Source: Elusimicrobiota bacterium
Lineage (GTDB): Bacteria; Elusimicrobiota; Elusimicrobia; UBA1565
Reading direction: 5' to 3'
NCBI GenBank assembly: GCA_016196755.1
Contig: JACPXC010000048.1
Span: forward strand, 62,001-126,000
DNA length: 64,000 nt
Part shown: piece after piece, positions 365 through 12,140 of the stretch
How positions within the stretch are numbered: the stretch's first letter is position 1
How the letters are laid out: each line of letters begins with the position of its first letter
The notes under the pieces: model-generated
Database searches by the model: none
Told to the model about the DNA's origin: nothing
The model's input: only the letters and a program-made list of their open reading frames with translations
Program-made: the position numbers and the translations under genes

Positions 365-392
365 TTGACGTACACCTAGTTTGTGCTAGAAT
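365..392 (+). promoter_or_regulatory. Promoter of the tRNA gene
   Basis: TTGACG at 365-370 and TAGAAT at 387-392 are separated by 16 nt. The -10 box is preceded by TTGTGC, giving an extended -10. The same 12-mer TTGTGCTAGAAT recurs upstream of the FecR-like gene at 33910-33921. Confidence 0.7.
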
Positions 393-416: not shown

Positions 417-489
417 GGCGCGGTAGCTCAGGGGTTAGAGCGGGCGTTTCATAAGCGCTAGGTCGCAGGTTCAATTCCTGCCCGCGCCA
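417..489 (+). tRNA. tRNA-Met (anticodon CAU), elongator type
   Basis: A full cloverleaf can be folded: acceptor GGCGCGG/CCGCGCC, D stem GCTC/GAGC, anticodon loop TTCATAA, and T arm GCAGG-TTCAATT-CCTGC, 73 nt with a discriminator A. CCA is not encoded. The paired first base (G1-C72) and the lack of three G-C pairs in the anticodon stem argue against an initiator tRNA. An Ile-CAU (lysidine) tRNA cannot be wholly excluded. A promoter lies immediately upstream. Confidence 0.92.
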
Positions 490-507
490 CACTTTGGTCT
501 AGGCGTC

Positions 508-513: not shown

Positions 514-529
514 AGGAGAGCGAAAACAC

Positions 530-709
530 ATGGCAGAATCGCTGGTCGTGGCGTCGAAGGTGAAGTCGGTCGTCAAGGAAGCCGGCCTGCGCACCGGCGG
601 GGACTTCTTGGACGCCCTTTCCAGCCGCGTCGCGTCGATCGTCTCCGCGGCCGTCGAGAAGGTCAAGGCCGAGGGCAAGAAGAAGACCCTGGGAGCCGAG
701 GACCTCTGA
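530..709 (+). CDS. Bacterial histone-fold protein (59 aa)
   Basis: This short gene encodes a polypeptide with the layout of a single histone fold. Helix 1 covers about residues 5-18 (VVASKVKSVVKEAG), loop 1 is GLRTGGD, a long helix 2 covers 26-48, loop 2 is GKKKTLG and helix 3 begins at AEDL. It parallels archaeal histones around the R-T pair (R21, T53) and the closing AED, but helix 3 is very short, as in Bdellovibrio-type bacterial histones. The protein is lysine-rich, as expected for DNA binding and dimerisation. An AGGAG precedes the ATG. The gene follows tRNA-Met and its stop overlaps the probable start of the MidA-like gene. The function is inferred from fold similarity by eye. Confidence 0.8.
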   Translation: MAESLVVASKVKSVVKEAGLRTGGDFLDALSSRVASIVSAAVEKVKAEGKKKTLGAEDL

Positions 710-726
710 GCACCTTCCGGGACTTC

Positions 727-1734
727 ATGGAGACCGCGCTCTACGACGGCGAGCGCGGCTTCTACGCGGCCCGGACGCCCAAGGCGGACTTCTACACCGC
801 GCCGGAGCTGCACCCGGCGTTCGCGCGCGTCCTGGCCGGGGAACTGGCGGCGCGTCTCGAGCGGGTCCGCGAGGCGCGGCCCCGCTCGCCTCTTTTCATC
901 GTCGAGGCCGGGTCGGGCGACGGCACCCTGGCGCGCCAGCTCCTGGCCGCCCTGCGCGAACAGCACCCGCGCTGGTTCCTCGCCATCCGCTACGTCCTCA
1001 TCGAGCGAGTCGAGCGGCTCCTGCTCGACAGCATCACCGACCTCCAGGACACGGGCGCTAACGTGATGGGCTACAGCCGCTTGGAGGACATGCCGCCGGT
1101 CTGCGGCGTGGTGCTCTCCAACGAGCTCATCGACGCCCTGCCGGTCCACGTCCTCGTCAAGGCCGCAGGTGCCATCAAGGAGCTCCACGTGGCGCCGCGG
1201 CGCAAGCACGGCCGGCCGGGCGGGGCCCTCAAGGCCGTGCCGGGCCCGCTCTCCGAGCGCGCGCTAAAGACCGCCGCCAAGCGGGTCGGCCCGGGCCTCG
1301 TCGACGGCCAGCTCCACTCCGTCTGCCTCGAGTCGGGCCGCTGGCTGGCCCAAGTCTCGAGCAGGCTCCGCGCCGGGTCGGTCATCACGATCGACTACGG
1401 CAAGCGCTTCGGCCCCGCCGACCCTAACCCGCCGCGCGGCTTCCGGCAGCACCGCCACGTCGCCGACCTGGTCGCCGCGGCCGGACGCCAGGACCTGACC
1501 GCCTCCGCCGACTTCACGACGCTCGAGGCCGAGGGCCGGGCCTGCGGCCTGGAGACCGTCGCCTACACGACGCTGTCCTCTTTCCTCATCGACCGGGGCA
1601 TCCTCGACCTGCTGCCGAAGGGGGACACACCCGCGGCCTACGCCGAGCGCGCCAAGATGAAGACCCTCTTCCATCCCGAAGGGATGGGCGAGGCCTTCAA
1701 GGTCCTCATCCAAGAGAAGGGGTTATCCCGATGA
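727..1734 (+). CDS. midA: MidA/NDUFAF7-family SAM methyltransferase (complex I assembly)
   Basis: The 335-residue protein belongs by motif to the MidA/NDUFAF7 (COG1565) methyltransferases. It has FMETALYDGERGFYA at the N-terminus, the SAM-binding loop EAGSGDGTLARQLL, the family segment LSNELIDALPVH and a DYG near residue 220. NDUFAF7 dimethylates an arginine of the complex I 49-kDa subunit, the NuoD homologue. Its position as first gene of the nuo operon, overlapping nuoA by ATGA, fits that role. The annotated ATG lies inside the conserved F-x-x-FM motif. A CTG at 706, overlapping the upstream stop as CTGA, would restore LSTFRDFM and is probably the true start. Confidence 0.85.
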   Translation: METALYDGERGFYAARTPKADFYTAPELHPAFARVLAGELAARLERVREARPRSPLFIVEAGSGDGTLARQLLAALREQHPRWFLAIRYVLIERVERLLLDSITDLQDTGANVMGYSRLEDMPPVCGVVLSNELIDALPVHVLVKAAGAIKELHVAPRRKHGRPGGALKAVPGPLSERALKTAAKRVGPGLVDGQLHSVCLESGRWLAQVSSRLRAGSVITIDYGKRFGPADPNPPRGFRQHRHVADLVAAAGRQDLTASADFTTLEAEGRACGLETVAYTTLSSFLIDRGILDLLPKGDTPAAYAERAKMKTLFHPEGMGEAFKVLIQEKGLSR

Positions 1735-2120
1735 TGCCCGACTACGCCGTCCTGTTCGCCTTCGCCCTCGTCGCCGTCGGCTTCTCGGCGGTCACTCTGG
1801 TGGCCGCCCAGCTCCTGCGGCCCTCTGTGCCCGACGCGGTCAAGCAGTCGACCTACGAGTGCGGCATGGACGCCGTCGGCTCGACCGAGGTCAAGACCAA
1901 CATCCGCTTCTACGTCTTCGCCCTGCTCTTCGTCATCTTCGACGTGGAAGCCCTTTTCGTCCTGCCCTGGGCCGTGACGGTCAAGGAGCTGGGCCCGGTG
2001 GCGCTCGTCGAGATGCTGGTCTTCCTCGTCATCCTCTTCACCGGCCTGGTCTACGCCTGGGGCAAGGGCGCTCTGGCCTGGGACGTGCCGCCCAAGAAGT
2101 CCACGGTTTCAGGAGCGTAA
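1731..2120 (+). CDS. nuoA: NADH-quinone oxidoreductase subunit A
   Basis: NuoA is a small membrane subunit of the proton-pumping arm of respiratory complex I. The 129 residues show three hydrophobic segments and the diagnostic loop [12 protein letters not shown] with its conserved Cys, followed by the helix [22 protein letters not shown]. The length is normal for the family. The ATG overlaps the stop of the upstream methyltransferase, so the two are translationally coupled. It opens an eleven-gene nuo cluster. Confidence 0.95.
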
Positions 2121-2130
2121 GGAGAGCCCC

Positions 2131-2676
2131 ATGGGTGTCGTCCTCGAGAAGCTTCCCGGAGTCTGCGGCGTCCTGCCCGGAGGCCAGGGGGTCCTGGCCG
2201 TCGCCGACGACGCCATCAACTGGGCGCGCAAGGCGTCGCTCTGGCCGATGACCTTCGGCCTGGCCTGCTGCGCCATCGAGATGATGGGCGCCTACGCCTC
2301 GCGCTTCGACTTCGACCGCATGGGCGTCATCCCGCGCCCGAGCCCGCGCCAGGCCGACCTCATCATCATCGCCGGCACCGTGGTCAAGAAGATGGCCGAC
2401 CCCATCATCCAAGTCTACAAGCAGATGCCCGAGCCCCGGTTCGTGATCTCGTACGGCTCCTGCTCCAACTGCGGCGGCCCGTACTACGACTCCTACTCGG
2501 TCGTCAAAGGCGTCGACAAGATCATCCCGGTCGACGTCTACGTGGCCGGCTGCCCGCCCCGGCCCGAGGCCCTGCAGTTCGGCCTGCTCCAGCTGCAGAA
2601 GAAGATCGACGCCATGACCATCGCCAAAGGGGCCGGCGCCACGCATCAGCAGGAAACCGGCTCCAGGGAGCTCTGA
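2131..2676 (+). CDS. nuoB: NADH-quinone oxidoreductase subunit B
   Basis: NuoB carries cluster N2, the last iron-sulfur centre before quinone. Ligand cysteines are visible as the tandem pair C46-C47 (LACCAIEMM), C111 (GSCSNCGG) and C141 (VAGCPPRPE). The length of 181 is typical. It lies 10 nt after nuoA and 2 nt before nuoC. All N2 ligands are intact, so quinone reduction should be functional even though the NADH module is absent here. Confidence 0.97.
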
Positions 2677-2678
2677 GC

Positions 2679-3278
2679 ATGGCCGCCATGACCGTCACCT
2701 CCGCCCCGATGACCAAAGAAGAGCTCAAGGCCGAGCTCGAGAAGACCTTCCCCGACCTCCTCCCCGCCAAGGCTTCCGTCGGCGACTACCTGACCCTGCG
2801 CCTGCCCGACTCCGCCAAGCTCCTCCCCGTGGTCCGGCACCTCAAGGACAAGCTCGGGTTCGACTATCTCGACATGGTCAACGCCACCGACTGGCTGGGC
2901 CCGGTCAGCCTCGCGGGCTTCATCCGCGAGCCCAACTTCAACATCTTCCTGCCCGAGGGGGCCAACCCCCAGGCCGAGCCGCCCGCCAAGACCGCGGGCG
3001 TCGACTACCGCGACGCCATCGAGCTCTCCTGGTGCCTCTCGAACCTGGCGCGCCGCATCAAGCTCTTCCTCAAGCTCGACGTCCCGCGCGCGGGGGGGAA
3101 GGCCCCCAGCCTCATCTCCCTCTATAAGGCGGCCGACTGGCAGGAGCGCGAGCTCTTCGACCTCTACGGCGTGCGCTTCGACGGCCACCCGAACATGACC
3201 AAGATCCTGACGCCCGATTTCACCGTGGGGCACCCCCTGCTCAAGGACTACATCCACCAGAAGGACCGTTTCGACTGA
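2679..3278 (+). CDS. nuoC: NADH-quinone oxidoreductase subunit C
   Basis: NuoC (30-kDa subunit) packs against NuoD in the Q-module of complex I. Family landmarks are FDYLDMVNATDW in the first half, the ERELFDLYGVRFDGHPNMTKIL signature spread over residues ~153-175, and a C-terminus ending HPLLKDYIHQKDRFD. The protein has 199 residues and is separate from NuoD, unlike the fused NuoCD of E. coli. A second ATG (residue 4) is possible as start. Confidence 0.95.
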   Translation: MAAMTVTSAPMTKEELKAELEKTFPDLLPAKASVGDYLTLRLPDSAKLLPVVRHLKDKLGFDYLDMVNATDWLGPVSLAGFIREPNFNIFLPEGANPQAEPPAKTAGVDYRDAIELSWCLSNLARRIKLFLKLDVPRAGGKAPSLISLYKAADWQERELFDLYGVRFDGHPNMTKILTPDFTVGHPLLKDYIHQKDRFD

Positions 3279-3288
3279 GGCACCCCCG

Positions 3289-4413
3289 ATGAGCAACTCC
3301 CCCGCCGCTCCCGAGCTCAAGTCCGACCAGCTCTTCGTCAACCTGGGCCCCCAGCACCCGTCCACGCACGGCGTCCTGCGCGTCGGCCTGACCATCGAGG
3401 GCGAGATCGTCGTCAAGGCCGTGCCCGACATCGGCTACCTCCACCGCGGCACCGAGAAGCTCGCCGAGCTGCGCGGCTACCACCATTGCGTCGTCATCTC
3501 CGACCGCTGGGACTACCTCTCGGCGATGAACAACAACCTGATGTTCTGCCTGGCCGCCGAGAAGCTCCTGAAGGTCGAGGTGCCGGAGCGCGCCCAGCAC
3601 CTGCGCGTGGCGATGTGCGAGCTCAACCGCATCGCCTCCCACCTGCTCTTCTTCGGCACCTTCGGCATCGACATGGGGGCCTTCACGGCCTTCCTGCACG
3701 CCTTCCGCGAGCGCGAGATGGTGCTCGACCTCTTCGAGATGTCCTGCGGCGCGCGCCTGACCTACAACTACATCCGCCTGGCCGGGGTCATGAAGGACGT
3801 GCCCGACGCCTGGGTGGCGCGCTGCCGCGAGTTCCTCGAGTTCTTCAAGCCGCGGCTCAAGGAGTACGACGAGCTCCTGTCGTTTAACCCGATCTTCCTC
3901 GACCGCACCAAGGGCGTCGGCGCCATCTCCAAGGCCGCCGCCGTCGACTGGGGCCTCTCCGGCCCGAACCTGCGCGCCTCGGGCGTCGACTACGACGCGC
4001 GCAAGTCGGAGCCCTACAGCGGCTACGAGAAGTACGACTTCGACGTCCCCCTCGGCGGCGACGGCGACTGCTGGGACCGCTACTACTGCCGCGTCCGCGA
4101 GATGCACGAGTCGATCAAGATCGTCGAGCAGGCGCTGGCCAAGCTGCAGCCGGGGCCCATCCTCGGCAAGGGCGTGGCCAAGGTCCCCAAGCCGGTGCCC
4201 GGCGAGGCTTACGTCCACGTCGAGGGCGCGCGCGGCGACCTGGGCTGCTACCTGGTCTCCGACGGCAACATGGCGCCGTACCGCATGCACATCCGCGCCC
4301 CCAGCTTCATCAACCTGGCCATCCTCCAGGAGATGCTGGTCGGCGAGCGGATGTCGGACGTCATCGCCATCCTGGGCTCGATCGACATCGTGCTGGGCGA
4401 GGTGGACCGCTGA
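3289..4413 (+). CDS. nuoD: NADH-quinone oxidoreductase subunit D
   Basis: NuoD (49-kDa subunit) forms the quinone site with NuoB. The NLGPQHPSTHGVLR motif starts at residue 18 and HRGTEKL at 52-58. The C-terminus ends SIDIVLGEVDR, as in the family. The 374 residues are slightly short because the N-terminal extension is small. R53 of HRGTEKL is in the region where the mitochondrial homologue is methylated by NDUFAF7, which makes the neighbouring MidA gene suggestive; the exact target residue is inference. Confidence 0.96.
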   Translation: MSNSPAAPELKSDQLFVNLGPQHPSTHGVLRVGLTIEGEIVVKAVPDIGYLHRGTEKLAELRGYHHCVVISDRWDYLSAMNNNLMFCLAAEKLLKVEVPERAQHLRVAMCELNRIASHLLFFGTFGIDMGAFTAFLHAFREREMVLDLFEMSCGARLTYNYIRLAGVMKDVPDAWVARCREFLEFFKPRLKEYDELLSFNPIFLDRTKGVGAISKAAAVDWGLSGPNLRASGVDYDARKSEPYSGYEKYDFDVPLGGDGDCWDRYYCRVREMHESIKIVEQALAKLQPGPILGKGVAKVPKPVPGEAYVHVEGARGDLGCYLVSDGNMAPYRMHIRAPSFINLAILQEMLVGERMSDVIAILGSIDIVLGEVDR

Positions 4414-4452
4414 ACGCCGTTTTTTTGTTAGGATAGCGCGCGCTTTAAACTG

Positions 4453-5856
4453 ATGGCCGAAGAAGAAAAGAAGACTCCCGAACCCGCCGCCGCGGCGCCG
4501 GCGCCCGCCCCGGCCCCCGCGCCGGCGGCCGCCGCCGCTCCCGCCCCTGCGGCGGCCGCCAAGCCCGCGGCCCCGGCCAAGCCCGCCCCCAAGCCCCTTC
4601 CGACCCCCGTCTACAACACCGCCGACGGCGCGCTTCTCATGGAGGACCGCCTCTGGCCCAGCGACGTCTGGAAGAACCCCTGGGACCGGCCGAGCTACCG
4701 CATGGGCTTCGTGAAGCTCGGCGTCCTGCTAGCCATCCTGCTCGGCGCCGCGCTCGCCGCCGGCGAGGTCGGCGTCTGGCTGGCTCCGAAGGCCAAGACC
4801 TTGCTGTCCGCCCTGCTGGCTGGGGCGGAAAGCCGGGGCGTCCCGGTCCCCGCGATCACGTTCGACGTGCTCTGGACGCTGGTCAAGGTCATCCTCGTCC
4901 TGCACGTGCCCCTGCTCTCGGCCCTGGTATTTGTCTGGTGGGAGCGCAAGATCTCCGCGCACATGCAGTCGCGCCTCGGCCCCATGTACGTCGGCGGCTT
5001 CCACGGCTGGGCCCAGACCATCGCCGACGGCATCAAGCTCCTCCTCAAGGAGAACATCACCCCGGACGCGGCCGACCCCTGGGTGCACCGCCTGGCCCCC
5101 GCCGTGGTCGTGGCTCCGGCCATCCTGGCCTTCGCCCCGGTCTGCTTCGGCAAGGAGCTGACGGTGGCCAACATCGACGTCGGCCTGGTCTACGTGTTCG
5201 CGATGTCGGGGGTGTCGGTCGTCGGCATCATGATGGCCGGCTGGGGCTCGGGCAACAAGTACTCCCTGCTCGGCGGCCTGCGCTCGGCGGCCCAGCTCGT
5301 CAGCTACGAGCTGCCGCGCATGTTCTCCATCGTCCCGGTCGTCATGTTCGCGGGCAGCCTCAACCTCACCGCCATCGCCGACGCCCAGGCCGGCTACTGG
5401 ATGAACACGGTGCCGCGCTGGTTCATCTTCTACCCCGTGGTCGGCCAGATCTCATTTCTCGTGTTCCTCATCGCCTCGGTGGCCGAGACCAACCGCATCC
5501 CCTTCGACATCCCCGAGGCCGAGTCCGAGCTCGTGGCGGGCTTCCACACCGAGTACTCGGGCATGAAGTTCTCGCTGTTCTTCCTGGCCGAGTACGCCTA
5601 CATGACCCTGGCCTGCTGCCTGAGCGCGGCGTTCTTCTTCGGCGGCGGCGGCGCGCCGGCCGCCTTCCTGGAGGGGACCCTGCCGAGCTGGGCTTGGTTC
5701 CTCGGCAAGGTCCTCGCCCTGGTGTTCGTCTTCCTGTGGTTCCGGTGGACCTTCCCGCGCTTTCGCGTCGACCGGCTCATGGACTTCAACTGGAAGTTCC
5801 TGCTGCCGTGGTCGTTTGCCAACATCGCTCTCGCGGGCCTCTACGTGATGTTTTGA
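4453..5856 (+). CDS. nuoH: NADH-quinone oxidoreductase subunit H with Ala/Pro-rich N-terminal extension
   Basis: NuoH is the membrane subunit that links the quinone chamber to the proton channels. Canonical motifs include WWERKISAHMQSRLGPMYVG, GIKLLLKENITPDAAD, ETNRIPFDIPEAESELVAGFHTEYSG (its acidic residues line the E-channel) and the closing FRWTFPRFRVDRLM. The 467 residues are longer than usual because the first ~52 are almost only Ala, Pro and Lys after MAEEEKK, which is not part of the family fold. The 39-nt gap after nuoD contains a run of seven T and no clear hairpin, so an internal start of transcription is possible. Confidence 0.95.
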   Translation: MAEEEKKTPEPAAAAPAPAPAPAPAAAAAPAPAAAAKPAAPAKPAPKPLPTPVYNTADGALLMEDRLWPSDVWKNPWDRPSYRMGFVKLGVLLAILLGAALAAGEVGVWLAPKAKTLLSALLAGAESRGVPVPAITFDVLWTLVKVILVLHVPLLSALVFVWWERKISAHMQSRLGPMYVGGFHGWAQTIADGIKLLLKENITPDAADPWVHRLAPAVVVAPAILAFAPVCFGKELTVANIDVGLVYVFAMSGVSVVGIMMAGWGSGNKYSLLGGLRSAAQLVSYELPRMFSIVPVVMFAGSLNLTAIADAQAGYWMNTVPRWFIFYPVVGQISFLVFLIASVAETNRIPFDIPEAESELVAGFHTEYSGMKFSLFFLAEYAYMTLACCLSAAFFFGGGGAPAAFLEGTLPSWAWFLGKVLALVFVFLWFRWTFPRFRVDRLMDFNWKFLLPWSFANIALAGLYVMF

Positions 5857-5857
5857 C

Positions 5858-6373
5858 ATGATCCAATACTTCTCCGAAGTCTTCGGCGCCTTCTTCGCGA
5901 TCCTCAAGGGTATGAGCGTCACCTTCAAGACCATGCTCAAGCCCTCGATCACCGTCCAGTACCCGACCGAGAAGCTGGTCCCGTTCTCCGGCTTCCGCGG
6001 GGCCCTGCTCTTCGACGCCGAGACCTGCATCTCCTGCAACCAGTGCGTGAAGGCCTGCCCGTCCTACTGCATCCAGCTCGAGAACGCCGTCAACGAGACC
6101 GGCAAGAAGGTCGCCAAGGTCGCCTGGTACTCGATCGACTTCGGCAAGTGCAACTTCTGCCGGCTCTGCGAGGAGTCCTGCCCCACCAAGCCCAAGGCGG
6201 TCTGGCACTCGAAGGACTACGAGCTGACCTTCTTCCGGCGCGACGAGATGGTCCGCTGCTGGAAGAAGGGCTTCGACTTCGTCGGCCTTTACTGGGACCG
6301 CGCGACCAAGGATTTCCGCAAGCCCGAGGGCCAGGTCCAGATCCAGACCACCCAGGAGCGGTTCCAGTACTGA
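5858..6373 (+). CDS. nuoI: NADH-quinone oxidoreductase subunit I (2 x 4Fe-4S ferredoxin)
   Basis: NuoI carries clusters N6a and N6b between the electron-input side and N2. Two ferredoxin motifs are intact: C57-x2-C60-x2-C63-x3-C67P and C98-x2-C101-x2-C104-x3-C108P. The protein has 171 residues. It begins 1 nt after nuoH, and its stop shares one base with the nuoJ start. With nuoE, F and G missing, NuoI would be the likely docking point for a ferredoxin-like donor; that is inference. Confidence 0.96.
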   Translation: MIQYFSEVFGAFFAILKGMSVTFKTMLKPSITVQYPTEKLVPFSGFRGALLFDAETCISCNQCVKACPSYCIQLENAVNETGKKVAKVAWYSIDFGKCNFCRLCEESCPTKPKAVWHSKDYELTFFRRDEMVRCWKKGFDFVGLYWDRATKDFRKPEGQVQIQTTQERFQY

Positions 6374-6858
6374 TGGACTGCCTAGCCTTCGCCTGCCTGG
6401 CCGGCGTGACCCTGGTCTGCGCGCTCGCCGTCGTCACCCTGCGCAACGTCCTCCATTCCGCCTTGTTCCTGGGCCTGAGCCTGGCCGGCGTGGCCGGCCT
6501 GTTCGCCTCGCTGGGAGCGGACTTCCTGTTCGCCGCCCAGATCCTCATCTACGTCAGCGGCATCGCCGTGCTCGTCCTCTTCGTCGTGCTGATGGCCGGA
6601 CGCCACTCCGAGCTGCACCTGCGCCAGACCAACAAGCAGTGGCTGCCGGCCTTGGCCGTGGCCGGCTTGGCGTTGTGGTCGGTTACCAAGGTCGCTCAGG
6701 GCTTCAGAATCGAGGCCCCGTCCCTGCGCCAGCCGACGACGCGCGCGCTGGGCAAGCTCCTGATGGGCGACTTCGCCGTCCCCTTCGAGCTCGTGTCGCT
6801 GATCCTCATCGCCGCCCTCATCGGGGCCATCGTCTTCACGCGCCCGGAGACCGAGTGA
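6373..6858 (+). CDS. nuoJ: NADH-quinone oxidoreductase subunit J
   Basis: NuoJ is a five-helix membrane subunit. The 161 residues start at an ATG overlapping the nuoI stop (TGATG). They show the family helix FLFAAQILIYVSGIAVLVLFVVLM, containing the pi-bulge region, and later VSLILIAALIGAIVF near the C-terminus. The same frame is open further upstream, but that part is antiparallel noise over nuoI. Its stop overlaps the GTG start of nuoK by four bases. Confidence 0.93.
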   Translation: MDCLAFACLAGVTLVCALAVVTLRNVLHSALFLGLSLAGVAGLFASLGADFLFAAQILIYVSGIAVLVLFVVLMAGRHSELHLRQTNKQWLPALAVAGLALWSVTKVAQGFRIEAPSLRQPTTRALGKLLMGDFAVPFELVSLILIAALIGAIVFTRPETE

Positions 6859-7160
6859 CCCTGGCCCACTACATGACCGTCTCGGGCCTGCTCTTCGCGA
6901 TCGGCGTCTTCGGCGCCCTGACCCGGCGCAACATCATCGGCATCCTGATGGGCATCGAGCTCATGTTCAACGCGGCCAACCTCAACCTCGCCGCCTTCAA
7001 CCGCTTCCTGGCCCCGGCCGGCGTGGTCGGCAGCGCCGTGACCCTCTTCACGATGGCGGTGGCGGCGGCCGAGATCGTGGTGGGCCTGGCCCTGGTCATG
7101 GCCATCTACCGCAACATGAACACGGTCTACGCCGAGGACATCAACCTCCTCAAGGGCTAA
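6855..7160 (+). CDS. nuoK: NADH-quinone oxidoreductase subunit K
   Basis: NuoK is a three-helix proton-channel subunit of 101 residues. It begins at GTG in a GTGA overlap with nuoJ and reads VTLAHYMTVSGLLFAIGVFG. The two membrane glutamates of the family are present in GIELMFNAANLNL and in AAAEIVVGLALVMAIYR. No ATG start in this frame would preserve helix 1, so the GTG is well supported. Confidence 0.94.
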   Translation: MTLAHYMTVSGLLFAIGVFGALTRRNIIGILMGIELMFNAANLNLAAFNRFLAPAGVVGSAVTLFTMAVAAAEIVVGLALVMAIYRNMNTVYAEDINLLKG

Positions 7161-7161
7161 G

Positions 7162-9192
7162 ATGATCGAATACGCCTACCTGATCCCGCTCCTGCCCCTG
7201 GCAGCCTCGGCCCTCATCCTGTTCCTGGGCAAGGAGGGCGAGCACTCGAAGATGCCGTACCTGGGCCTCGCCGTCATGGGGGCCTGCCTCCTGGTCTCCA
7301 CCTGCATCTTCGCCGAGAGCCTGCTGGGCTCGGTCGACCTCCCCTACTACAAGACCATCCCCTGGTTCAACTTCGGCCAGTTCGAGATGACCTTGGGCGT
7401 GCTCATCGACGGCCCCGCGGCCACCCTGCTCTTCGTCGTCACCCTGGTGAGCTTCCTCGTCCAGCTCTACTCGCTGGGCTACATGCACGGCGAGAAGCGC
7501 CTCAAGCGCTACTACGCCTACCTCTCGCTGTTTACCGCCGCGATGCTGGGGCTCGTGGTCAGCTCCAACCTGCTCGTCCTCTTCGCCTGCTGGGAGCTGG
7601 TCGGCCTGGCCTCCTATCTCCTCATCGGCTTCTGGTTCGAGAAGCCGGGCCCGGCCTACGCCTCCAAGAAGGCGTTCATGACCACCAAGCTCGGCGACTG
7701 CGGCCTCTACGTCGGCCTGCTCCTGCTGTTCGCCTCGCAGGGCACATTCGACCTCCAGATGCTCCAGTACCGCGCCAGCCTCGGCCCGGAGTATTTCCCG
7801 CTCGAGATCGCCACCGCCGTCGGGCTCCTCTTCCTCTTCGGCGCGGCCGGCAAGTCCGCCCAGGTCCCGCTGTTTATCTGGCTGCCCGACGCGATGGAAG
7901 GCCCGACGCCGGTCTCGGCCCTCATCCACGCCGCCACCATGGTCGTGGCCGGCGTCTACCTCGTGGCCCGCACCTTCTTCATCTACCACGCGGCCCCGAT
8001 CGCCATGGGTGCCGTGGCCTGGACGGGGCTCATAACCGCCTTCATGGCGGCCACGATGGCGCTGACCGCCTACGACATCAAGCGCGTCCTGGCCTTCTCG
8101 ACGGTCAGCCAGCTCGGCTACATGATGCTGGGCCTGGGCGTGGGCGGCTACAACGCCGGCCTCTTCCACCTGACGACCCACGCCTTCTTCAAGGCCCTCC
8201 TGTTCCTCGGCGCCGGCTCGGTCATCCACGCGGTCCACTCCAACGACATGCGGGACATGGGCGAGCTGCGCCACAAGATGCCCGTGACGGCGATCACCGT
8301 CGGGATCGCCGTGATGGCCATCGCCGGCGTGCCGTTTCTCTCCGGCTGGTACTCGAAGGAGGCCATCCTCCACCACGTCTACGAGCACAATCCGTCGATG
8401 TGGGTCATCGCCATCATCACGGCGGGGATGACCGCCTTCTACATGTCGCGCATGTACTGGCGGGTGTTCTTCGGCAAGGCCGGCGACTCGCACAAGTGGG
8501 AGCACGCCCACGAGTCCCCGGCCACGATGACCGTCCCGCTCGGCGTCCTCGCCTTCCTCTCCCTGGTCTCCGGCGCGTTCCTCGAGAAGTCGGGCATGTT
8601 CCACACGCTCGTGAACGTCGACCGCCTCTTGGCCGCCCCGGGCAGCCCCGAGGCCGCCGGCCTCGGCACCGCCCACGCGGCGCCGGCCGCCGGGCACGGG
8701 CAGGCCGCCGCCGAGGCGCTGGCTCACCACGCCCCCGCTTGGCTCCTGCCCGGCGCGGCCGTCCTGATGGCCTTCGGCGGCATCCTGCTGGCCTGGAAGC
8801 TCTACGGGGACGGCGACCACAAGCTCGCCGCGGCGATCCGGGAGCGATTCTCCTGGGTGGCCGACATCCTCGAGGCGCGCTATCGCTTCGACGACTTCTT
8901 CCTGTGGCTCGTAGACCTCTCCGACCGGCTGGCCGGCGCGCTGTTCTGGTTCGACGCGCAGATCATCGACAAGATCTTCATCGACGGCTGGGCCGCGGTG
9001 ACCCGCGCCCTGGCCTGGGTCAGCGACTTCTTCGATTTCCGGTTCGTCGACGGCGCCGTGGACGGCGTGGGCCTCATCACCCAGGACGGCGGCCGCGCCC
9101 TGCGCAAGCTGGTCCGCGGCCAGACCCAGGAGTACCTGATGTACGCCGCGCTCTCCGTCGCCGTTCTGACCGTCTTCGTCATCACGAGGTAA
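7162..9192 (+). CDS. nuoL: NADH-quinone oxidoreductase subunit L
   Basis: NuoL is the most distal antiporter-like pump subunit, 676 residues. The Proton_antipo_M core is clear: FACWELVGLASYLLIGFW (key Glu), KSAQVPLFIWLPDAMEGPTPVSALIHAATMV and KRVLAFSTVSQLGYMMLGLG. The C-terminal part contains a His/Ala-rich loop (about residues 498-525), then a helical segment corresponding to the lateral helix and the final anchor. Spacing to nuoK is 1 nt and to nuoM 4 nt. Confidence 0.96.
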   Translation: MIEYAYLIPLLPLAASALILFLGKEGEHSKMPYLGLAVMGACLLVSTCIFAESLLGSVDLPYYKTIPWFNFGQFEMTLGVLIDGPAATLLFVVTLVSFLVQLYSLGYMHGEKRLKRYYAYLSLFTAAMLGLVVSSNLLVLFACWELVGLASYLLIGFWFEKPGPAYASKKAFMTTKLGDCGLYVGLLLLFASQGTFDLQMLQYRASLGPEYFPLEIATAVGLLFLFGAAGKSAQVPLFIWLPDAMEGPTPVSALIHAATMVVAGVYLVARTFFIYHAAPIAMGAVAWTGLITAFMAATMALTAYDIKRVLAFSTVSQLGYMMLGLGVGGYNAGLFHLTTHAFFKALLFLGAGSVIHAVHSNDMRDMGELRHKMPVTAITVGIAVMAIAGVPFLSGWYSKEAILHHVYEHNPSMWVIAIITAGMTAFYMSRMYWRVFFGKAGDSHKWEHAHESPATMTVPLGVLAFLSLVSGAFLEKSGMFHTLVNVDRLLAAPGSPEAAGLGTAHAAPAAGHGQAAAEALAHHAPAWLLPGAAVLMAFGGILLAWKLYGDGDHKLAAAIRERFSWVADILEARYRFDDFFLWLVDLSDRLAGALFWFDAQIIDKIFIDGWAAVTRALAWVSDFFDFRFVDGAVDGVGLITQDGGRALRKLVRGQTQEYLMYAALSVAVLTVFVITR

Positions 9193-9196
9193 CCCG

Positions 9197-10693
9197 ATGG
9201 GCATCCTTTCCCTGACCACCTTCATCCCGCTCCTGGGGGCGCTGATCGTCCTCTTGATCCCCAAGGGCCAGGTGAAGCTGATCCGCGGCGCCGCCGTCCT
9301 GACCACCCTGGCCGCCCTGGCCGCCTCGCTCTGCGCGCTCAACGCGTTCGACCCGGGCACCATCGCGATGGACGGCCTGCCGATGCAGTTCATGGAGAAG
9401 TACGACTGGATCCCGACCTTCAACATCCACTACCAGATGGGCGCCGACGGCCTCTCCCTGCCGCTGATCGTCCTGACCACCTTCCTGTGTTTTCTCGCCG
9501 CGGTGTACTCGACCTCGATCACCGAGCGGGTCAAGGAGTTCTTCTTCTGGTATCTCCTGCTCGAGGTCGGCATGCTGGGCGTGTTCTGCGCCCTCGACAT
9601 GTTCCTCTTCTACATGTTCTGGGAGCTGACCCTGGTGCCGATGTATTTCCTGATCGGGGTCTGGGGCGGCCCGAAGAAGGAGTTCGCGGCCATCAAGTTC
9701 TTCCTGTTCACGCTGTTCGGCTCGGTGTTCATGCTGCTGGGCATACTCGCGCTCTACTTCCAGTCCAACCCGCACACCTTCGACATGCTCGAGCTCATGA
9801 AGGCGACGGGGGGCTTCAGCCGGGAGTTCCAGATCATCGTCTTCATGGCCTTCTACCTGGGCCTGGCGGTGAAGGTCCCGGCCTTCCCGTTCCACACCTG
9901 GCTGCCGCTGGCCCACGTCGAAGCACCCACCCCGGTCTCGGTCATCCTTGCCGGCATCCTGCTCAAGATGGGCGTCTACGGCCTCCTGCGGATCTCGTAC
10001 TCGATCCTGCCGGCGGGCTACGAGTGGTTCCTGCCCTACCTGATCGTCATCGCCTTCATCAACATCGTCTACGGCGCGCTCTGCGCGATGGCCCAGACGG
10101 ACATGAAGAAGATGGTGGCCTACTCCTCGGTCAACCACATGGGCTACTGCCTGCTCGGCATGGCCGCGGTCTCCTCGACGGGCTTCAACGGCGCGGTCCT
10201 GCAGATGATCAACCACGGCATCATCACCGCCGCGCTGTTCTTCCTGGTCGGCGTCATCTACGACCGGGCCCACACCCGCGACATCACCGCCTTCGGCGGC
10301 CTCGGCGCGCGCGTGCCGGTCTACGCCGGGCTCATGGCGATGACCTGCTTCGCCTCCCTGGGCCTGCCCGGCCTGGCGGGCTTCATCTCCGAGTTCCTGT
10401 GCTTCCTCGGCGCCTTCCCGGCCTGGAAGCTCTACACCGTGCTCTCGGTGTCCGGCATCCTGGTCACCGCGGCGTTCTTCCTGCGCATGCTCCAGAAGGT
10501 CTTCCTCGGCCCCTTCAACGAGAAGTGGAAGGACTTGCCCGATATGAACCTGCGCGAGCTCGTCGCCGTGGCGCCGCTGGCCGGCCTCATGCTGCTCTTC
10601 GGCATCTGGCCGCGCCTGGTCCTCGACATCATGAACCCCACCCTGACGGTCATGGCCAAGATGTTCCCGGGGATGTTCGCGATCGTGCGCTGA
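9197..10693 (+). CDS. nuoM: NADH-quinone oxidoreductase subunit M
   Basis: NuoM is the second antiporter-like subunit, 498 residues with about 14 hydrophobic segments. It shows FYMFWELTLVPMYFLIGVWGG with the pump glutamate, KVPAFPFHTWLPLAHVEAPTPVSVILAG and KKMVAYSSVNHMGYCLLG. The length and motifs are normal. It sits 1 nt before nuoN, so the membrane arm genes are tightly coupled. Confidence 0.96.
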   Translation: MGILSLTTFIPLLGALIVLLIPKGQVKLIRGAAVLTTLAALAASLCALNAFDPGTIAMDGLPMQFMEKYDWIPTFNIHYQMGADGLSLPLIVLTTFLCFLAAVYSTSITERVKEFFFWYLLLEVGMLGVFCALDMFLFYMFWELTLVPMYFLIGVWGGPKKEFAAIKFFLFTLFGSVFMLLGILALYFQSNPHTFDMLELMKATGGFSREFQIIVFMAFYLGLAVKVPAFPFHTWLPLAHVEAPTPVSVILAGILLKMGVYGLLRISYSILPAGYEWFLPYLIVIAFINIVYGALCAMAQTDMKKMVAYSSVNHMGYCLLGMAAVSSTGFNGAVLQMINHGIITAALFFLVGVIYDRAHTRDITAFGGLGARVPVYAGLMAMTCFASLGLPGLAGFISEFLCFLGAFPAWKLYTVLSVSGILVTAAFFLRMLQKVFLGPFNEKWKDLPDMNLRELVAVAPLAGLMLLFGIWPRLVLDIMNPTLTVMAKMFPGMFAIVR

Positions 10694-10694
10694 C

Positions 10695-12140
10695 ATGGAC
10701 GGGTTGAAGCTCCTCCTGCCCGAGTTCGGCCTGAGCCTGATGGCGCTGGGGCTCATGGTCTGCGACCTGTTCTTCGACCGGCGGGCCGGCAAGGCCCTGC
10801 TGGCCCTGGGATTTGTGGCGGCCGGCGTCGCGCTGGGCAGCCTCGGCCTCGCCTACAACGCGCCGGAGGCCTACAGCGGCCTGGGCACGCTCTGGGCCGT
10901 CGACCCGATGAGCCTGTTCTTCAAGGCCGTGATCCTCGCCACGACGACGTTCGTCCTGATGCTCTCGATCGACTACAAGCCCGCCGCCGAGCTGCGCCAT
11001 CCCGGCTCGTTTACGGCCCTGGTCCTCTTCTCCGCGGTCGGGATGATGCTCCTGGTCTCGGCCACCGACCTCCTGCTCATCTTCCTCTCGCTCGAGCTGG
11101 TCTCGATCTGCTCCTTCATCCTGGTCGGCTTCGAGCGCCGCGACCTCAAGTCCTCCGAGGGCGCGATCAAGTACTTCCTCTTCGGCTCGTTCTCGTCGGC
11201 GATCTTCATCTACGGCATCTCCTTCCTCTACGGCGCGCTGGGCTCGACGAGCCTGCTCGACCTGCGCCCGCTGCTGGGGGAGGGGCCGGCCCTCATGTTC
11301 ATGGTCGGCTGCATCCTCCTCTTGGTGGGCTTCGGCTTCAAGGTCTCGATGGTGCCGTTCCACTTCTGGGTCCCCGACGCCTACGAGGGCGCCCCGATCC
11401 CGGTCACCACCTTCCTCTCGATCGCCCCCAAGGCCGCGGCCCTGGGCGTCATGGTCCGGGTGTTCAACCACCTGATCCCGCACTCCCAGCTCGAGCTGAC
11501 GGGCCTGTTCTCGCTCTTGGCCGTCCTGACGATGACGGTGGGCAACCTCACGGCGCTGTTTCAGACCAACATCAAGCGCCTGCTGGCCTACTCCTCGATC
11601 GCCCAGGCCGGCTACATGCTCATCGGATTCGTCACCGCCGACGCCATGGGCCGCGAGGGCCTGATCCTCTACACCTTCGTCTACGTGTTCATGAACCTGG
11701 GCGCCTTCGCCGTGGCCCTGACCCTCGGCAACGAGGAAGGCTACGAGCTGGAGGCCTTCGACGGCCTCTCCCAGCGCAACCTCGGACTGGCCCTGCTGAT
11801 GACCTTCTTCATGCTCTCGCTGGCCGGCATCCCGCCCCTGGCGGGGTTCATCGCCAAGTTCACGCTGTTTGCCGCTGCGGTCAAGACCGGCCACGTCTGG
11901 CTGGCGGTGGCCGCGGTGCTCAACAGCGTGATCTCGGTCTACTACTACATGTCGGTGGTCTACCACATGTTCTTCAAGCAGGCCCGCACCCACGAGCCCG
12001 CCCCGACCCGCCTCTTCGTCACCGGCACCCTCGCCGTGGCGGCGGTCGGCGTGCTCTTCATCGGGCTCTACCCCGAGCCCTTCCTCGCCGTGGCACATCT
12101 CTCGGCCGAATTCCTGCCCTCCGCCGCCGCTCTCCCCTAG
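10695..12140 (+). CDS. nuoN: NADH-quinone oxidoreductase subunit N
   Basis: NuoN is the third antiporter-like subunit, 481 residues, and closes the nuo gene set. Motifs are IFLSLELVSICSFILVGF, GFKVSMVPFHFWVPDAYEGAPIPVTTFLS and KRLLAYSSIAQAGYMLIG. The next gene starts at GTG overlapping this stop by one base, so the secreted protein downstream may be co-transcribed with complex I. Confidence 0.96.
   Translation: MDGLKLLLPEFGLSLMALGLMVCDLFFDRRAGKALLALGFVAAGVALGSLGLAYNAPEAYSGLGTLWAVDPMSLFFKAVILATTTFVLMLSIDYKPAAELRHPGSFTALVLFSAVGMMLLVSATDLLLIFLSLELVSICSFILVGFERRDLKSSEGAIKYFLFGSFSSAIFIYGISFLYGALGSTSLLDLRPLLGEGPALMFMVGCILLLVGFGFKVSMVPFHFWVPDAYEGAPIPVTTFLSIAPKAAALGVMVRVFNHLIPHSQLELTGLFSLLAVLTMTVGNLTALFQTNIKRLLAYSSIAQAGYMLIGFVTADAMGREGLILYTFVYVFMNLGAFAVALTLGNEEGYELEAFDGLSQRNLGLALLMTFFMLSLAGIPPLAGFIAKFTLFAAAVKTGHVWLAVAAVLNSVISVYYYMSVVYHMFFKQARTHEPAPTRLFVTGTLAVAAVGVLFIGLYPEPFLAVAHLSAEFLPSAAALP

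Follow-up and report, generated by a model that had tools for sequence, protein, structure and literature searches.

Near the start of the 64,000-nucleotide stretch of DNA analysed here (the window), a short plus-strand open reading frame (530..709) runs from an ATG at position 530 to a TGA at 707-709 and encodes a protein of 59 residues, which its reading frame, family profile, predicted fold and structural matches mark as an alpha3-truncated bacterial histone. Its coordinates and length are exactly those given in an earlier note on this DNA. Upstream on the same strand lie a Shine-Dalgarno sequence, AGGAG (514..518), and the gene for a tRNA-Met (cat) (417..490). Downstream, again on the plus strand, are a gene with a probable CTG start for a MidA-type (Methyltransf_28) protein (706..1734; Pfam PF02636, E 1e-38) and nuoA (1731..2120), which opens a nuoABCDHIJKLMN-like run in which nuoA, B, C, D and H (the last identified by Pfam) are followed by further complex I genes. 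In this run, at 1731-12140, nuoH comes after nuoD with none of nuoE, nuoF and nuoG in between; another contig, C61, carries a NuoF-type domain (PF01512). NuoH itself (4453-5856) carries some 144 residues, alanine/proline-rich at first, ahead of the Pfam NADHdh domain.

Seventy distinct homologues of 59-60 aa were found, with 54-92% identity to the window protein; in the alignment, mean column identity between the window protein and these sequences was 77%. Most of their genes are also preceded by AGGAG-like motifs. Against the two nearest relatives, dN was 0.06 and 0.09 and dS 0.49 and 0.61, giving a dN/dS of approximately 0.12-0.15. Together, the 70 homologues and this ratio exclude a chance open reading frame, and purifying selection on the family is strong. 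A long minus-strand reading frame at 499-1209 was rejected as a shadow of the MidA and histone genes. No histone family in Pfam or NCBIfam reaches threshold for the window protein, so that routine annotation would miss it; among the homologues, CBFD_NFYB_HMF is touched weakly in nine of 71.

The single-chain AlphaFold model (pLDDT 84) places helices at residues 2-17 and 24-48 and a stub at 56-58. This is the layout of a histone fold with the shortened third helix that the earlier note had described, and the model and its structural matches place the protein among the alpha3-truncated histones, in which helix 3 is cut to about 3-4 residues and helix 2 is also shortened. Foldseek returned HLp (top), HBb and HTkC at probabilities of 0.97-1.00, with the weak E-values (0.009-0.09) to be expected when a chain is this short, and below these mostly eukaryotic histone-fold proteins. 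VIA Z scores were 6.0-6.4 for the same three structures and 4.3 for the next best. By sequence, the closest solved relative is HBb, the Bd0055 protein of Bdellovibrio bacteriovorus and a bacterial dimer histone (PDB 8FVX, 8CMP, 9EZZ, 9F0E), at E 2.6e-7 when the window protein is the query and 1.3e-12 when the family profile is used; HLp (4.4e-9 in the profile search) and HTkC come next. The assignment to a histone of the Bd0055 sort was thus borne out by both sequence and predicted layout. The two proteins are about 40% identical over the structural alignment and share size, histone fold, stub helix 3, the SKVK..K pattern of helix 1 and KT....D at loop 2.

The published criterion for bacterial dimer histones is clustering in CLANS; a profile search was used here instead, and its best match places the protein with HBb. 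The helix-1 lysines of that class are present, K10, K12 and K16 being invariant in the 70 homologues. The RKT....D motif and the RD clamp reported for these histones do not hold in the window family, in which the loop-2 motif is KKT in 65 of 71 sequences, RKT in five and KMT in one, with D58 invariant; the window protein is therefore a variant rather than a plain HBb-like member. It is a known kind of histone with a distinct loop signature, RTGGDY...GKKKTLGAEDL, which is family-wide: loop 1 bears an arginine, and lysine stands in the place of the clamp arginine. Set against HBb, the protein is shorter by one residue in loop 1 and longer by one in loop 2 (GKKKT vs GRKT).

Among the ten HBb residues with the most DNA contacts (PMC11317129), six are identical in the window protein (S9, K10, K12, K16, K52 and T53). 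The other four are altered (N22 to R21, R57 to E57, T8 to A8 and S24 to G23), as is the clamp (R51 to K51), and N22 was the top DNA-contact residue of HBb in the published simulation (PMC11317129). The geometry of binding could therefore differ from that of HBb, given the changed contacts and clamp, and the net charge of the protein is only +2. It could be argued from the same changes that the histone fold has been kept while DNA binding has been lost or the role has changed, but this is highly improbable: the conserved basic residues lie on the DNA face of helix 1 (K10, K12, K16), in loop 1 (R21) and in loop 2 (K52-T53), and the invariance of R21 and T53 along with the helix-1 lysines, together with K52 in 69 of 70 homologues, is what would be expected of a DNA-binding face.

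A loop-1 arginine and an AED after loop 2, both present in the window protein, are features of the HMfB-type archaeal nucleosomal histones. AED is usual in archaeal histones, and an initial view of E57 as peculiar was dropped. In comparison with the HMfB type, helix 2 of the window protein is shorter and helix 3 is reduced to a stub, and a tetramer interface of the four-helix-bundle type is therefore not expected.

Another kind of tetramer had to be weighed. HLp (Leptospira perolatii) and HTkC (Thermococcus) are face-to-face alpha3 histones (9QT0, 9F2C) that share the fold and stub helix 3, and the window protein might, like them, form a DNA-wrapping face-to-face tetramer instead of a dimer. 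HLp is the top Foldseek match, its Z score is level with those of HTkC and HBb, and loop 1, one residue shorter than in HBb, has the length seen in face-to-face-like paralogues of related genomes. The HLp tetramer interface, however, is built on R49/N53 with R55 as a third residue (PMC12701072), and the window protein has neither the R...N pair nor this arginine: the face-to-face positions, R48 and N52 in HMM numbering, are K44/E48 or V45/G49 in the two possible registers, and R55 is K51. Moreover, some Elusimicrobiota (L080-L083, L085-L092) encode, alongside the family copy, a second, more divergent histone that shows the face-to-face pattern (R...N, NGRKTVR). These paralogues have one residue fewer than the window protein ahead of the loop-2 threonine, and a family-profile search found no such second histone in the window's own genome. 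Because the face-to-face R and N are absent in either register, the dimer is favoured and the tetramer is considered unlikely.

A whole-phylum search found a histone match in 81 of 294 sampled Elusimicrobiota genomes; a family-profile search gave the same genome count, and positive genomes nearly always have one full-length copy. The small-genome families f4 and f15 gave no match at all, which makes the histone patchy at the family level, by either loss or independent gain. Schwab et al. 2024 (PMC11390915) had already named Elusimicrobiota as a phylum in which alpha3 histones of the "bacterial dimer" kind occur. Hence, of the earlier suggestion that this is one of the scarce bacterial histones, the bacterial context stands, but the scarcity does not. 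In a tree of the 59-residue proteins most deep forks were unresolved, and only small, well-supported groups are used below.

A consensus scan located a sigma-70-like promoter ahead of the tRNA gene (365..392, plus strand), TTGACG-16-TAGAAT with a TG preceding the -10; the scan gave two promoter-like sites, one of them on the opposite strand, vs 0.1 expected in shuffles. By eye, a similar TAGAAT/TAAAAT box precedes the tRNA in five loci of the same family (L001, L002, L003, L004 and L007). No good -35 box was seen between the tRNA and the histone start codon, where a TATAAT occurs at 508-513. The site at 365..392 is the probable start of a tRNA-histone transcript. At the other end of the gene, the overlap of the histone stop with a probable CTG start of MidA, as the earlier note had read it, is well supported: CTG 706 aligns with the position at which MidA begins with ATG in relatives (MQTFRDFM / LSTFRDFM), and the 4-base CTGA overlap recurs in L001, of the same genus, the only other locus that has it. 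In L002, also of that genus, a gap and a hairpin-like sequence take its place.

Within the window's family, tRNA-Met lies 29-48 nt upstream of the histone in 7/7 sampled genomes and MidA no more than 111 nt downstream in 6/7. In family f2, tRNA-Met is found within 1 kb upstream at all 27 loci, with MidA downstream at 21 and NuoA at 23 of them, and in other families of the class 14 of 16 loci have NuoA after the histone, a UbiE-like gene (PF01209 for the two tested) often replacing MidA. Across the taxonomic order, histone-MidA-Nuo is thus a frequent arrangement, as is histone-(UbiE-like)-Nuo in the sister families within the class. At the histone loci examined from other classes, none of the tRNA-Met, MidA or Nuo neighbours was present. 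The link to complex I is therefore old within the class, but the histone family as a whole does not need it; the proposed tie of the histone to complex I biogenesis is supported in part: it survives as a linkage within the order and class, fails at the other-class loci, and has the overlap behind it in two genomes only.

These arrangements bear on whether the protein is a local regulator tied to respiration, acting for example on the tRNA-Met/complex I transcript or on complex I assembly. Such a role would fit a histone-Nuo linkage that several families of the class have kept, including those in which a UbiE-like gene stands in for MidA, and the overlap of histone stop and MidA start in two genomes. 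Against it, the protein is equally conserved at the other-class loci, where the linkage is absent, hairpin-like sequences seen by eye divide histone from MidA in several relatives, and the histone is carried by phages (see below) with no complex I genes in the stretches read. We regard it as very unlikely. The hairpin-like sequences, found between the histone stop and MidA in L002, L003, L004 and L007 and absent from the window, are perhaps partial terminators that raise histone expression over that of the downstream genes. In two distant families (L049, L066), a short NusG-II-like protein was seen by eye downstream of the histone, directly or one gene later, together with a membrane protein resembling heptaprenyl diphosphate synthase component I.

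The reading that we consider quite likely is that of an alpha3-truncated, HBb-like histone which would homodimerise, bind the DNA backbone without sequence preference and, by analogy with HBb, bend it, serving as a nucleoid-associated protein next to one HU-family protein. In the window's family it would be expressed from a transcript that probably begins upstream of tRNA-Met and continues through the histone into MidA and the complex I genes; a separate promoter appears to serve the histone in related families. A role as the main nucleoid protein, raised earlier for the case of high expression, is conjectural: an HU-family gene is present in the genome as well (one PF00216 match), and the histone gene has average codon usage, its CAI of 0.69 lying near the median for background segments (ribosomal-gene adaptation is uninformative here), with no sign of exceptional expression.

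The most interesting lead is provided by phage copies. Two scans of IMG/VR identified three phage contigs with the same kind of histone, at L101:10001-10168 (contig L099/L101, 45.6 kb), L102:10001-10177 (contig L100/L102, 101.8 kb) and L103:8763-8966 (contig L103, 44.7 kb); tblastn against INPHARED phages gave no histone match. The products, of 73 aa (L099), 59 aa (L100) and 67 aa (L103), terminate in TLG[AS]ED[LIV], directly after the histone fold. The published phage histones (Schwab et al. 2024, PMC11390915) possess a helical domain at the C-terminus but no RxTxxxD motif; the copies found here resemble them in being alpha3 histone folds in phage genomes, but differ in having no C-terminal helical tetramerisation domain. 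In a literature search such copies were unreported, although absence of a report is no proof. Terminase, DNA polymerase, primase and Sak4-like genes occur in L101 and L103, with portal and head genes also in L101, and L102 has a terminase. In the tree, the L100 product falls within a group of Elusimicrobiota family f6 (four rows, 96/91), and the L099 and L103 products pair (100/86) beside the cellular family, a placement to be read with caution since long branches meet there. Three phage contigs, one of them nested in a host clade, suggest a tentative reading in which phages captured a host-type histone and deploy it during infection, whether to package DNA, shield it or take it over, the host form having an altered DNA-contact geometry through the loop-1 arginine, the longer loop 2 and a K-D in place of the R-D clamp; we hold this, as a whole, to be possible rather than probable.

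Laboratory work on bacterial histones has covered very few species. The family described here adds, in another phylum, a deeply conserved and usually single-copy histone with systematically changed DNA-binding loops and phage-borne relatives. Its members are natural variants with which the roles of the RD clamp and the loop-1 residue can be probed, and the phage-borne relatives offer a way to ask whether phages exploit bacterial histones; if the capture reading is true, the chromatin of Elusimicrobiota is targeted or mimicked by their own phages. The nearest Elusimicrobiota match to a phage terminase, in genome G251, is 45% identical, which is suggestive only of a host link. Two of the three phage contigs have similar sets of replication and packaging genes.
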